DNA from: an uncultured bacterium
GTDB taxonomy: Bacteria; Patescibacteriota; Gracilibacteria; Absconditabacterales; Absconditicoccaceae
NCBI GenBank assembly: GCA_947168815.1
Contig: CAMVNG010000001.1
Location: 248,001-312,000 of the forward strand
Direction of reading: 5' to 3'
DNA: 64,000 nucleotides
The notes below the pieces were generated by a model. That model did no database searches. It was given only the letters and a program-made list of their open reading frames with translations, and was not told the origin of the DNA. A program made the translations under genes and the position numbers. Shown here one piece after another: positions 20,019 to 29,709 of the stretch (positions within the stretch are counted from its first letter, which is position 1; each line of letters opens with the position of its first letter).

Positions 20019-23000
20019 ATGGCATCTAATCTAGAACGTATGAATGACATCCTTGATTTTTGGGCTAAAGATAATACTTTTCAAAGATCAATTGATGAAA
20101 GATCAGAAAAAATGAATTATAGATTTTTTGATTGACCTCCATTTGCTAGTTGAACTCCGCACTACGGACACTTATTAGCGGGAAGTATTAAAGATGTCAT
20201 TCCTAGATATAGAACGATGAAAGGATATAAAGTAAAAAGAAAGTGGTGATGGGATTGTCATGGATTACCAGTAGAAAAAGCAGTAGAAAAAGCTTTAGGA
20301 ATCGATTGAAAAAAAGATATCGAACAAAAAATAGGAATCGAAACATTCGTTGAAAAATGTAGAGCTTATGTAAACCAAACAAATGCGGATTGGAAATGGT
20401 TCGTAGATCACACAGGAAGATGGGCTGACATTACAAATCCATATTTCACAATGGATCTAGATTTTATGGAAACGGTGATTTGGTGTTTTTCTAATATCTA
20501 CAACCAAAATAAAGTATATAAAGGATTTAAAGTACAAGGATATTGTCCAAGTTGTGCTACTCCATTAGCAAACAATGAAATTTCTGATGGATATGAAGAT
20601 AGACAAGACATGGCTATTACTATTAAATTCGCCCATAAAGCTCCAAAATCAGAAAAATATGAATCAACAGAAGATGGTTTTGTTGATGTTGTTGCATGAG
20701 TTATCAAAGATAGCGAATGAAAATATGCCATGGTTCACCATGCAAAAGAAAATCAATGGTTCTTCCCTGGAGGTAAAGTAAATCCATGAGAAAGCCTAGA
20801 AGATGCCACAAAAAGAGAACTTAAAGAAGAAATAGGAGTAGATGTTGCTAGCCAAAAATATTTGTGAGCTGTAAAAATTATAACATTATGAAAACCTTGT
20901 AGAGTTCACTGGTTTGAGGTTGAAACAAACGATACTCCATCTATCCAAGAACCAGAAAAACACAATGCATTAGAATGGGTTAAAGAAGAAACAGCTGAAA
21001 ATAAACTTTGATTCGCCCTAAATATCAATTGAAATATTATTGATGATGAAAATGAATTAGTACATGACTTCATCGATTTCCATCTTTTCAAAAACGTTCT
21101 AGATCCAGAAGATAAAGGATTAATCGATGGTAACTTTAACTTCTTAGCATGGACAACAACTCCATGGACATTACCTAGCAATATGTTCCTAGCAGTTGGT
21201 GCTGATATCGATTATGTTACAGTATATGACCCTGACTCAAAAGAATACTATGTAATGGCAGAAAACTTAGTTAAAAAATACTATAAATCACCAGATCAAT
21301 ATAAATTCATTTACAAACAAAAAGGAAAAGAATTAGAGAACTTAACATATAAGCCATTATTTGATTATATTCTCAATTCTAAAATTGCTGATGAATATAA
21401 AAAAGAATTCTTCCATATTCTTATTGCAGATTTTGTAAGTATTGAAGATGGTACAGGAATTGTACATATTGCTCCAACATTCTGAGAAGACGACTTTAGA
21501 GTTGTTGCAAACAGACTTGGAGAACAAAAAGCATTAGATTGGTTGTTTATGCCAGTTGATGATTATGGATGTTTTGATGAACAAGTTCCAGATTATCAAG
21601 GAATGAAAGTTTTTGATGTAAACAAACCTGTTATGGACCTTCTTAAAGAGAAAAAAATAACAGTTAAAGCTGAATCAATCAAACACTCATATCCTCACTG
21701 TTGGAGATGTCACTCACCTCTTATCTACAAAGCTATGTCTAGCTGGTTCATCAAAGAAAAAGAGATGAATGCAGAAAGTTATAAAGATGCTGAAAGCGTT
21801 TCTTTCGTTCCAGAAACTGTAAAAAATAGATTTATAAATGGATTACAACAAGCTCCTGATTGGAATGTTGCAAGAAATAGATATTGGTGATCCCCTCTTC
21901 CTATTTGGCAAAATGTAGAAGACCCTGAAGATCGTTTTTCATTAGGAAGTCTTGAAGAAATCTATCAATTAACAAGAACAGGTTCATTAAACCTTACTAA
22001 AAACATCTTCCTAAGACATTGAAAAACAGATTTCAATGAAAAGAAACATTTTGATGGATTAGGAATGTCTGTTCTCACAGAAGAAGGAGAAGAGCAAGCA
22101 CAAGAAGTTAATAAAGCTTTAGAAAAGCACCTAAAAGAAAAAGAAGAATTAGTTTTCATCATTTCTCCTCTTCAAAGGTCTTGGCAAACAATTAAACCAA
22201 CACTTATTACACTATTCTGAGAAGAAAGAATTGAAGCTGCAGAAAAAAAATATTATGAAACACGAGAAGAATATAAAAAAGTATTCAATGATTGAAGCCT
22301 CAAAGAAATCCTTCAATGAACAGATGCCCAAAATATCTTCAAAATTGATGAACAAGTTTATATTGATTGGAGGATGACAGAACACTATTCTCCAGAAAAC
22401 CAAGATGAGTTTTCAGCATGTAATAGTCTCAATTGGACAAAATATGATGAACCAATCGGAAGCTCAAACAAATGAGAATCACTAAATACTGCCATAAAAA
22501 GAGTTACTAATGCCATAAAATATTGGAACAAAGAATTTGCAACAAAAACAATTATTTGGGCTACTCATAACGACACAATCGTAATGTCAAAAAAAGCTTT
22601 CCGTAATTTCGATTATGGAACTTATAGAGAAAAATATCTATTAAAACATGCAAACTTCGTAATCAATTATTGGGATAATGATAGAAATACAGAAGTTGAC
22701 CTACACAAACCATACGTTGATAACTACCGAGGAGTAAGAAATTGAAAAACATATAAGAGGATAGCAGAAGTAATGGACTGTTGGTTTGAATCAGGTTCAA
22801 TGCCATTTGGACAAGACCATTACCTAGGAGATGAAAATAATTGTGACCTTACCTACCCTGCAGATTTTATTGCAGAAGGACTAGATCAAACAAGATGATG
22901 GTTTAGATCTCTTCATGTTGTAGGACACGCAATTAAAGGAACAAACGCATTTAAAAACGTTATCGTTAACTGATTAATCCTAGCAGAAGACGGTAAAAAA

Positions 23001-24188
23001 ATGTCTAAGAGCTTACATAATTACCCAGATCCTAAAGGACTTATTGAAAAATGGTGAGGTGATGCCTTCAGACTTTACACATTATCTTCTCCAGTAGTAA
23101 GAGCAGAACCTATGAAATTCTCTGAAAAAGGAGTAGAGCAAATGTTTAAAGATTTCAACATTCCTCTAGAAAATGTATATAAGTTCTTTGAAACCTATGC
23201 TAAAATCGATTGATGGAAAACAGATTGAACTGAAGTTCATCTCATAAGACATGCAGATGCTACTTCACAAGACCATGATGCAGAATTAACAGAAGATGGT
23301 ATAAAAATGCTTAATTCTGAAGAAACTCGTGAAAAAATAGTAAGATTAAATCCTGATATTATTATTCATACTCCATTACTAAGAAGTAAACAAACTGCTG
23401 AAATTCTTAGAAATATTCTTAAAGAAACAACATGAAAAGCTGTTGATCTTCAACAAATTAGACCAGACAACAGCCAAGATGCTTCTAAGAGTTATATGAA
23501 AAAATTATATGATGAAGTATTAAGAGAACATCAAGGACAAAAAATATTAATCGTAGGACATGCATATACCTTAAGAACACTTTGGGAAATTCTCTATGAC
23601 AATAATCAAGAAGACTATACTTATAATGAAGTTGAAAGAGAAGTTGGATTAAAACCATTAGAAATTATCAAACTTCCAACTTACCAAATAGCAAATGAAC
23701 TAGATAAATGGATATTAGCGGAATTAAATCAAACCCTTAAAAATGTAGACGAAGCACTTTCTCGTTGTGAAATCGATGCTGCAATTAAAAGCTGAATTGA
23801 TTTTGTAGAAAAACTTACTAATTGGTATCTTAGAAGAAGTAGAAGAAGATTCCGAGGAAGCGAAATGACTACAGATAAATTCTCTGCATACTCAACACTC
23901 TTTGAAGTGCTTAGAACATATCTTAAAATTATGGCTCCATTTACACCATTCATCACAGAAGAAATCTGGCAAAAACTAAATGGATTCATCGAATGAAAAG
24001 ATGCAAATATTAAATCAGATTCTCTCCATCTAAAAATGTGGCCTTTTGCAAATGAAAAATATATTGATGCTCAACTTATGGAAGAAATTACAACTGTAAG
24101 AAAAGCAATCAAGCTTGCACTCTTTATTAGATCAAAGAATAAGATTGCTGTAAAGCAACCACTTCAATCATTACAACTTAAAATATAA
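20019..24188 (+). CDS. ileS: Isoleucyl-tRNA synthetase with inserted Nudix and two histidine-phosphatase domains
   Basis: 1389 aa in one frame. The IleRS core is intact: HYGH (HIGH) in [28 protein letters not shown] of the CP1 editing domain (W ~378), [42 protein letters not shown] and the anticodon-binding bundle ([13 protein letters not shown]). Three insertions: (1) ~207-370, a Nudix domain with a perfect box [17 protein letters not shown] followed by KEEIGV; (2) ~655-890, a histidine phosphatase with LRHGKTDFN (His ~667), SPLQRSWQT and ATHND; (3) ~1070-1222, a second one with LIRHADAT (His ~1078), [11 protein letters not shown] and VGHAYTL. Without them it is ~835 aa, and it ends right after the anticodon domain, lacking the usual long C-terminal extension. 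It overlaps sufC by one base (TAATG). Confidence 0.93.
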
Positions 24189-24901
24189 TGCTAAAAATCG
24201 ATAATCTTTCAGTTCATATATGAGAAAAGGAAATTCTTAATGGAATTTCCTTTGATTTTGAGAAAGGAAAGAATTATTGTATTCTTTGAAAAAACGGTTC
24301 AGGAAAATCTTCTCTAGCAATGACTATTGCTTGAAATCCTAAATACGAAATTAGTAGTTGAGATATCCTTCTTAACTGAGAATCATTAAAAAATCTTAGT
24401 GTTGACGAAAGGAGCAAAAAAGGAATTTTTCTCTCATTTCAAAATATTCCAGAAATCCCTTGAGTAAAACTCTTTGAATTCTTAAAAGCGATTTATGATA
24501 TCAGGCAAGAGAAACCAATTTCTTTTATGTGATTTAAAAAAATCATTGAACCACTTGTTGAAGAATTAGAAATCGATAAATCATTTCTTCGAAGAGACTT
24601 AAATGTGGGATTCAGTTGAGGAGAAAAAAGAAAAATAGAAGTACTTCAAATAAGACTACTAAATCCCTCTATCATCATCCTAGATGAAATAGATAGTGGA
24701 TTAGACGTAAATGCCGTAAAACAAGTTTCAACATTACTAAAAAAAATAAATAGTACTGAAAATACCTTCATCATTATTACTCATCTATTTGAGATGCTAG
24801 AAGGACTTCCAATTGAACAAGTTCTTATAATTGAAAATTGAAAATTAAAAGAAACATGAGATGAAAATCTCATGAACAAAATAAAAAAAGAGGGGTTCTA
24901 G
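24188..24901 (+). CDS. sufC: Fe-S assembly ATPase SufC
   Basis: 237 aa. ABC ATPase with Walker A LGKNGSGKSSLA, the Suf-specific stretch IPGVKLFEFLKAIYD, ABC signature GFSGGEKRKIEVLQ and Walker B IIILDEIDSGLDVNAV. It powers the SufBCD scaffold for cluster assembly. Translationally coupled to ileS by a 1-nt overlap. sufB lies 6 kb away on the other strand, and no sufD or sufS is seen in the window. Confidence 0.93.
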
Positions 24902-27267: not shown

Positions 27268-29709
27268 ATGAAACAAAAATTATCAATTACATTAGGTACT
27301 ATCATGTTCACCATTCTAGTTACCTCACTTGCATTAGCTGAATATTCACAAGAAGTAAAAAATGCCTACAATTGGGCTTTCTCATACAAAATTACTACCC
27401 AACCAACAATAGATGATGCAAGACTAGATCAAGAAATAACAAGACAAGCAATGGCTAAAATGATTGTAAATTTTTCTAAAAACTTTTCACAAAGAACACT
27501 TGATGAAAGTAAGTCTTGTACTTTCATTGATAATGATATCACAGACGATTTAGTACCATATGTAAAACAAGCGTGTCAATTAGGACTTATGTGACAAAAT
27601 ACAAATATCTTTAAACCTCGTGATTCTGTTACTAAAGCTCAATTTGCAACAATGATATCTAGAAGTATTTGGTGAAATAAATATGAAGGTTCTGAACCAT
27701 ATTATATAGCACATATGGCAGCACTTCAAGAGGCTGGAATCTTAGATAATACCCCTAATCCAGAAAAAGAAAACATGACAAGAGCTAACGTTCTTCTAGC
27801 ATTACAAAAAGCAACAAACATTTCTTGAAAAAGTGCACTTGCTCTAGAAGAAAATAAATGATTCAGCAATTTCTTTGATCCAGAAATTGAAGCACTTATG
27901 AGTAATAAAGAGTTAACAGAAGAACAAAAAAAAGCAATCAGACAAACGCTATTAGATAATGAAAATACTTTCTTAGAAATCGAAGATTTATTAACTTCTA
28001 GTATAGAAGATGATGATTTCACTTTAGATGACGTTAAAGCTAATAAATATATTAAAGCAACAGAGAATATAAAAAATACTATCTTACCAAAATATATTTC
28101 AACTATTAAATCGATTTATAATGGATTATGAGTTGATGTAGAAAAGCAAGATAAATACACAGCAGGAGAAAAGATTAAAGAAATAGAAAAAATGTGAAAT
28201 GCTCTTACAGATTATTTAGATACAAGCGTAGAAGTTCTTAATTTCTTTAGATGAATTTATAAAACAGTTAAAATTGGAGAAGACTGAGATTTTATCTTCG
28301 ATAATGAGGAAATTGAGAATCAAATAAAATCAAAAGCAGAAGAACTAAACAAAAAATGGGAAGATATTAAAGACAAATTCGAACAAGCAACTGAGGATTA
28401 TACAGAGTATTTATCTGAATATCAGGAAAATAATCAATATCGATCTGTATATTCATCTATTCTCAATGATGAGATTGGTGATTATATCCTTGACTATAAT
28501 CCTAATGAAGCAGTATTTAAAAACTGAGTTTATACACGAAGTGATGGAGTTACTTATAAAGGAGAAATCAGCAATAATAAATTCCATGGTAGAGGAATCT
28601 TAACATTTGAAAACTGAAGTTATTACTCATGAGAATTCAAAAACCATTATTATGATGGATACTGAGAATTTAAAGATGATAATTACTATTTCATTTGATA
28701 CCTTAAAAAATGAGAACCAGAATGAACCTGATTCCTAAAAGAAAATGATGAAACCTATTCATGATCATTTAAAGATGGTCAAAAACATGGTTATGGAGAA
28801 TTCACAACACCTGAATATACTTTCAAAGGAATCTGGAATAACGACAAAATGAAAGAAGGAATTATAACAAGCCAAATTGGATACACTTATAGTTGAGGAT
28901 TCAATCAATGAACAATGGATGGATATGGAATCTTAACTTTACCAACTGGAGAAACATACGAAGGATTCTTTGAAGATTGAGAAGCTAATTGATTATGAAC
29001 ATTAACAACTAAAGCATGAGAAAAATATTCTGGAGGATGGGAGAAAGGTTTCCTATCTTGAGAAAATCTCTACTTCTGAGCATGAAAACTAGTCTATGGT
29101 AAAGACATTATTATTACTGAAAATCAATGGAATAATACCATTATTATCAGTGATGGAAAAGATAACTTAACTATTATGAATAAAAATGTTTGAGCAACAG
29201 AAAGCTGAACATGAAAAGAATCTTATGGTTCATTCTTTAAATATGGAAACAATACTCCATTCTCATCAAGTTCAATCAATGAAGATGCCAAAAAATTCCA
29301 AACTACAACAACAGGAACTTGGAAAGAAAAAGAACAATGACCTTGTCCTAATGGATTCCATATTCCAACAAGACAAGAATGGACTTGGGTAATCAACCTC
29401 TTCGATTTAAAAAATCAATTTGATGAAGGTACAGCATGACGAGTTCCATGAGAAACAACAAATAAATTCTCAAGCTCATTACAACTCCCATATAGTGGTA
29501 TACGTTATATTCACGGTGATGAGAATGAAATTACCGACCAAGAATCACAAAATGATGAAAATAAATTATGATATTATTGGACATCAGATAATTACTATAT
29601 GTACTTCTCAAATATGAAAAATAAAGATTGAGAAACTCGTTGATGATTCTGATTCTCAAATAATACAAATAAATGACAAGCCGTATCAATTCGTTGTTTT
29701 AAAAACTAA
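27268..29709 (+). CDS. Surface protein with SLH-like, MORN-repeat and FISUMP domains
   Basis: 813 aa. A signal peptide (SITLGTIMFTILVTSLALA) is followed by an SLH-like region (~25-190; EITRQAMAKMIVNFS, DSVTKAQFATMISRS), a charged helical stalk (~200-420), about seven MORN repeats (~430-610; e.g. YKGEISNNKFHGRGILTFEN, YEGFFEDGEANGLGTL), and a C-terminal FISUMP-type domain (CPNGFHIPTRQEWTWVI, ending AVSIRCFKN). SLH domains anchor to the cell wall; FISUMP domains are known from Bacteroidetes and Fibrobacter surface proteins. The combination suggests a long, wall-anchored adhesin or scaffold. The 155-aa gene follows 30 nt later. Confidence 0.85.

Follow-up and report, generated by a model that had tools for sequence, protein, structure and literature searches.

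An isoleucyl-tRNA synthetase gene with predicted Nudix and histidine phosphatase domains nested in its surface loops, from an uncultured member of the Absconditicoccaceae

Introduction

Few known enzymes are as conserved as the aminoacyl-tRNA synthetases, and the repeated uptake of whole, catalytically intact enzymes by such proteins bears on how domains enter essential proteins. The ileS gene of an uncultured bacterium of the Absconditicoccaceae (phylum Patescibacteriota) raises this question in a pronounced form, since the isoleucyl-tRNA synthetase (IleRS) that it encodes contains a Nudix hydrolase domain and two histidine phosphatase domains (HP1 and HP2). The window, which is the whole stretch of DNA that was analysed, comprises 64,000 nucleotides of contig CAMVNG010000001.1 (assembly GCA_947168815.1). 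Is the gene authentic, how widespread is such nesting and what might the guest domains do? The answers bear on how reduced genomes retain small activities and on unseen chemistry around translation in uncultured bacteria.

The ileS Gene and Its Synthetase Core

The host genome decodes TGA as glycine (code 25), and ileS is a single frame of 1389 codons with 27 TGA codons read as glycine and a TAA stop. The borders of the inserts were mapped onto a core profile built from 13 insert-free Patescibacteria IleRS. All features lie on the + strand:

20019..24188, +, ileS, 1389 aa (translation table 25, TAA stop, Pfam, NCBIfam)
20019..20642, +, IleRS core segment 1, aa 1-208, first Rossmann half with HYGH (core HMM mapping)
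20643..21128, +, site A insert, MutT-like Nudix, aa 209-370 (Pfam, alignment, model)
20772-20840, +, Nudix box, aa 252-274, inside the site A insert
21129..21980, +, CP1 editing region and return to the Rossmann fold, aa 371-654 (motif, structure match)
21150-21167, +, WTTTPW, inside the CP1 editing region segment
21981..22694, +, site B insert HP1, histidine phosphatase branch 1, aa 655-892 (Pfam, alignment, model)
22695..23228, +, second half of the catalytic domain, aa 893-1070 (motif, core HMM mapping)
22998-23012, +, KMSKS, inside the second half of the catalytic domain
23229..23681, +, site D insert HP2, SixA-like histidine phosphatase, aa 1071-1221 (alignment, model)
23682..24185, +, anticodon-binding helical bundle, aa 1222-1389, without the usual C-terminal domain (Pfam Anticodon_1)
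24188..24901, +, next gene, SufC-like ABC ATPase, not part of the synthetase

The protein belongs to the NCBIfam ileS family (TIGR00392, 797.3 bits against a cutoff of 621.4) and possesses the HIGH-type motif (HYGH, aa 48-51), the CP1 motif (WTTTPW, aa 378-383), KMSKS (aa 994-998) and an anticodon domain. A Pfam search of the code 25 translation detected tRNA-synt_1, Anticodon_1, NUDIX (60.6 bits, aa 223-326) and two His_Phos_1 domains (94.4 bits, several stretches). Site A precedes WTTTPW, site B lies between RYWGSPLPIW and DLHKPYVD, with CP1 on one side and the remaining half of the catalytic domain on the other, and site D precedes the anticodon domain. The original prediction, made from the DNA alone, had described this frame, its core motifs and three inserts of these two families, and its coordinates and motifs agree with ours. 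It had also called the IleRS core complete, which holds for the motifs and the anticodon bundle but overlooked the C-terminus: the protein ends at position 828 of the 962 in the core profile and lacks the usual C-terminal tRNA-binding domain, as do its three-insert relatives. This absence lowers only the claim to a complete canonical IleRS, as the family cutoff is still passed. A split gene with the missing domain in the next ORF was ruled out because that ORF encodes the unrelated ABC ATPase, whose ATG shares one base with the ileS stop (TAATG, 24186-24188). Further along the window, positions 27268-29709 hold an 813-aa ORF that contains MORN repeats and weakly matches the Fib_succ_major domain.

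AlphaFold modelled the Nudix, CP1 and HP1 regions with confidence, and likewise HP2 together with the anticodon domain (pLDDT 84, pTM 0.82), as the nested-hydrolase prediction would have it; its model of the Rossmann core was poor, a probable result of the shallow alignment. Foldseek searches with the predicted model retrieved IleRS first, followed by the IleRS editing domain (the CP1 region matches solved structures of it), phosphoglycerate-mutase-like proteins (HP1) and a Nudix RNA pyrophosphohydrolase.

The Nested Nudix and Histidine Phosphatase Domains

All three guests retain the catalytic residues that the original prediction ascribed to them. The domain at site A contains a perfect GX5EX7REUXEEXGU box (G252-V274), in which E267, E270 and E271 are invariant across 25 aligned sequences of relatives. 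The box, the Pfam score and the confident model place it in the Nudix family as a predicted hydrolase. Its highest profile scores are with MutT and CTP-pyrophosphohydrolase models and with solved MutT proteins. A PADLOC match over the Nudix part (PDC-S07) was read as a Nudix family match and gives no evidence of defence. The genome also encodes a free Nudix protein, an IPP isomerase and a third Nudix protein.

HP1 possesses R666, H667, R720, E820 and H850; with the RHG motif, the second arginine, the general acid, the second histidine and the fold, it is a member of histidine phosphatase branch 1. Its nearest relatives by sequence profile are phosphoserine phosphatase 1, PhoE-like and CobC proteins. 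HP2 possesses R1077, H1078, R1122 and H1181. By sequence profile it is weakly nearest to phosphoserine phosphatase 1 and SixA, and in its fold and its best structural matches it resembles SixA; it did not reach the cutoff for the SixA phosphohistidine phosphatase (TIGR00249, 38.9-48 bits against 74.5). No histidine phosphatase other than HP1 and HP2 was detected in the genome. This matters for annotation, as the sole histidine phosphatases detected in this genome are hidden within an ileS gene, and nested domains are likewise the sole histidine phosphatases detected in 17 of the 39 genomes of the class that were scored.

Conservation and Selection in Related Genomes

All three inserts occur at identical points in 19 genomes of the same family, as would be expected if the prediction described a genuine protein, and in the two of these genomes that belong to the same genus the protein is about 90% identical. 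In a tree of the IleRS core, the three-insert proteins and close partial copies form one clade (24 rows, support 100). Comparisons within the genus gave dN/dS values of 0.03-0.05 (core), 0.08-0.09 (Nudix domain), 0.13-0.15 (HP1) and 0.03-0.13 (HP2). The core and all three inserts are therefore under purifying selection, with the guests evolving faster than the core in most comparisons. The shared inserts and the dN/dS values rule out an assembly join or a chance frame.

The guests are not equally constrained. The catalytic R, H, R and H of HP1 are kept in 19 of 19 copies from the window's group (f1), and neither HP1 of complete copies nor the Nudix domain has lost catalytic residues. Several relatives have lost those of HP2 (genomes G005, G015, G023, G031 and G033), so not every nested domain is needed.

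Inserts in Other IleRS of the Patescibacteria

The original prediction regarded this IleRS as a single odd enzyme; it proved to be one member of a phylum-wide pattern. About one fifth of the IleRS frames found in the phylum sample exceed 1120 aa. The IleRS sample comprised 126 sequences, most of them from Patescibacteria, and over-represented long frames. Of these sequences, 71 carry an insert at site B, usually a catalytically intact histidine phosphatase, and 41 are free of inserts at A, B and D. Gains and losses of inserts are frequent on the IleRS tree, where the history of site B alone needs 24 changes over the 126 rows. In IleRS from other groups than that of the window, His_Phos_1 accounts for 40 of the 45 inserts at site B, and R, H, R and H are kept in 55 of 55 site-B histidine phosphatases of non-f1 IleRS, a set that came from a profile search and is biased towards well-preserved domains. 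Named hosts of site-B histidine phosphatases include MAGs of Peregrinibacteria, Nomurabacteria and Yanofskybacteria. The most histidine phosphatases in one IleRS is three (G053).

Different guests can occupy one and the same site. Site A holds Nudix or GNAT (the latter in G011) and site C holds a histidine phosphatase or GNAT (the latter in G041 and G058). In family f26 (L167-L169, L203), site A of IleRS is filled by about 100 aa and site B by 129 aa, with no Pfam match in the members scanned. One IleRS contains a Y1 transposase-like domain (PF01797) in frame within its CP1 region (G042, L065:1357-1923). Among the matches that one search gave outside the Patescibacteria, aligned lengths are too short for such inserts except in L086, from a MAG labelled Spirochaetia. 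Its histidine phosphatase falls among the site-B histidine phosphatases of Patescibacteria, and L086 is possibly misbinned.

Nested Domains in Other Host Proteins

Among 40 genomes of the class, nested histidine phosphatases were found in IleRS, ValRS, AlaRS and UvrB. Nearly all are in IleRS or ValRS, with the ValRS of two families containing one to three each; AlaRS and UvrB are single cases. This bias suggests either some benefit linked to aminoacyl-tRNA synthetases or unusually tolerant loops. Phosphatases with intact catalytic residues are nested repeatedly in housekeeping enzymes of the phylum.

In AlaRS, a class II synthetase, the histidine phosphatase follows the catalytic domain and precedes the later ones (G058, L253:1297-4482). 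In UvrB (L248 and L274, G043:C69), the nested histidine phosphatase is followed by an RBBP9-like serine hydrolase. The same genome encodes a LeuRS with two tandem Nudix domains, in a frame that reaches the contig end (L267:318-3626). At least eight genomes of the class encode a UvrC whose RNase H endonuclease domain is split into two halves by a GNAT domain (loci L280-L285, L271 and L272; genomes G044, G038, G055, G039, G050, G192, G053 and G042), and a UvrD-like helicase of G053 carries GNAT as well. An EPSP synthase (AroA)-like protein appears, from its sequence, to have a C-terminal Nudix domain in two genomes (L268 in G190, L269 in G198).

How the domains came to reside in these hosts may be reflected in the histidine phosphatase tree, in which nested domains group mostly by host and site and not with free histidine phosphatases. 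The UvrB domain pairs with the IleRS domain of its own genome (SH-aLRT 96), the two being each other's best hit, and the AlaRS domain groups with those of ValRS (support 84). A distinct lineage of nested domains, mainly histidine phosphatases, might have spread between essential proteins (IleRS, ValRS, AlaRS and UvrB) by intragenomic copying and not by recruitment of free enzymes, a form of homing-free mobility in which the guests are kept active. We put this forward tentatively and give it a rather low probability. Hopping between hosts stays a suggestion since AU tests did not reject a placement of the UvrB domain with free histidine phosphatases (p 0.25) or of the ValRS domains without the AlaRS domain (p 0.65).

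Possible Functions of the Nested Domains

The guests are homologous to Nudix hydrolases and histidine phosphatases, keep their catalytic residues and are inherited across the whole lineage. The reading that we favour, to which we give about an even chance, is that of a working IleRS with a type 2, eukaryote-like core and three compact hydrolases nested in its surface loops, in other words a multi-enzyme whose guests are real hydrolases, as predicted. Each nested domain would fold independently and act on small soluble phosphorylated substrates, which would make ileS a gene for several enzymes. The Nudix domain would be a MutT-type nucleotide pyrophosphohydrolase, and HP1 and HP2 would be small-molecule or phosphohistidine phosphatases. 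Nesting within an essential gene would provide co-expression and protect the guests against loss, and a dedicated coupling to tRNA charging would not be required. The multi-enzyme is favoured because the link to Ap4A and MutT1 is weakened, a role in glycolysis is disfavoured (both discussed below) and the nested histidine phosphatases are the sole ones detected. The exchange of guests within one site and the range of unrelated hosts (AlaRS, UvrB, UvrC, UvrD-like helicase and LeuRS) support it; the strong host bias of nested histidine phosphatases and the residue losses in HP2 speak against it.

That host bias is an argument for a coupling in cis, in which the guests would process compounds that the synthetase releases as by-products or makes in error (dinucleoside polyphosphates, adenylates, AMP or further phosphorylated ligands), to keep charging going or to signal. 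A role coupled to aminoacyl-tRNA synthetases is possible given the enrichment of nested histidine phosphatases in IleRS and ValRS, which are editing synthetases of class Ia (with one AlaRS besides), and the two Nudix domains of LeuRS in one genome and the location of site B beside CP1 point the same way. We nevertheless lean against the coupling in cis. The original prediction had suggested, with mycobacterial MutT1 as a precedent, that the enzyme may clean up its own by-products (Ap4A among them), edit adenylates or degrade an alarmone or synthetase inhibitor. Its link to Ap4A and MutT1 lacks support: the nested Nudix domain is MutT-like and resembles neither Ap4A hydrolases nor MutT1. With the MutT1 model NF052459 (cutoff 475) it scores 30.6 bits, against 47.7 bits for the free Nudix protein of the same genome, and the guest domains are not in tandem. 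Clean-up also leaves aside the hosts UvrB, UvrC and UvrD-like helicase, which carry guests of the same families (histidine phosphatase or GNAT) but form no adenylate by-product, and the 41 sampled IleRS without an insert at A, B or D count against coupling too. Those DNA repair-type hosts are equally unexplained by self-protection, in which a nested Nudix, phosphatase or acetyltransferase would modify nucleotide-like or phosphorylated inhibitors beside their target. Acetylation and the cleavage of phosphoesters or phosphoramidates are known routes for the inactivation of aminoacyl-nucleotide inhibitors, chemistry that suits the alternation of GNAT, histidine phosphatase and Nudix in the same loops, and the core resembles type 2 IleRS structures; but we know of no synthetase inhibitor for these organisms and consider self-protection unlikely.

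The guests could instead be passive, tolerated in permissive loops and persisting as structural decoration. The decay of HP2 in several relatives, the frequent gains and losses at site B and the faster evolution of the guests would fit this, but HP1 and the Nudix domain have kept their catalytic residues almost without exception across large divergence, which together with the low dN/dS makes passive insertion improbable as well. Finally, a nested histidine phosphatase might serve as the glycolytic phosphoglycerate mutase of an organism with a reduced genome, a notion prompted by the fold of HP1 and the lack of a detected free histidine phosphatase. We regard it as very improbable: the genome encodes iPGM and enolase, nested histidine phosphatases occur also where enolase was undetected (G043, G046, G056 and G194) and HP1 falls far below the cutoff for the cofactor-dependent mutase (TIGR01258, 32.8 bits against 81.7). 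A negative association between nested and free histidine phosphatases (Fisher p 0.006), as if the former replaced the latter, is largely confounded by glycolysis and was set aside because, among genomes with enolase, free histidine phosphatases go together with a lack of iPGM (p 0.0008). The nested proteins can be expressed from synthetic genes and assayed, which makes the question of their function directly testable.

Relation to Known Systems

A search of the open-access literature found no paper describing these nested-domain proteins, which is not proof of novelty. NCBI recognises an IleRS that likewise carries an extra catalytic domain (NF040702, ileS_w_GNAT), but the guests in the window are Nudix and two histidine phosphatases, Pfam detects no GNAT and the score is 310.4 bits against a cutoff of 1999. 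Mycobacterial MutT1 combines the same two guest families in one polypeptide as a two-domain tandem, whereas those of the window are separate inserts in a synthetase. The solved structures closest to the window model are the type 2 IleRS of yeast and Priestia megaterium (IleRS2), which have no nested hydrolases; P. megaterium IleRS2 has the C-terminal tRNA-binding domain that the window IleRS lacks. Other synthetases have appended domains, such as the MetRS of Mycoplasma penetrans, which is reported to be a reduced-genome synthetase enlarged by N-terminal accessory domains (PMC13215547). The additional domains of the window IleRS are catalytic and are nested at several loops instead of being N-terminal.
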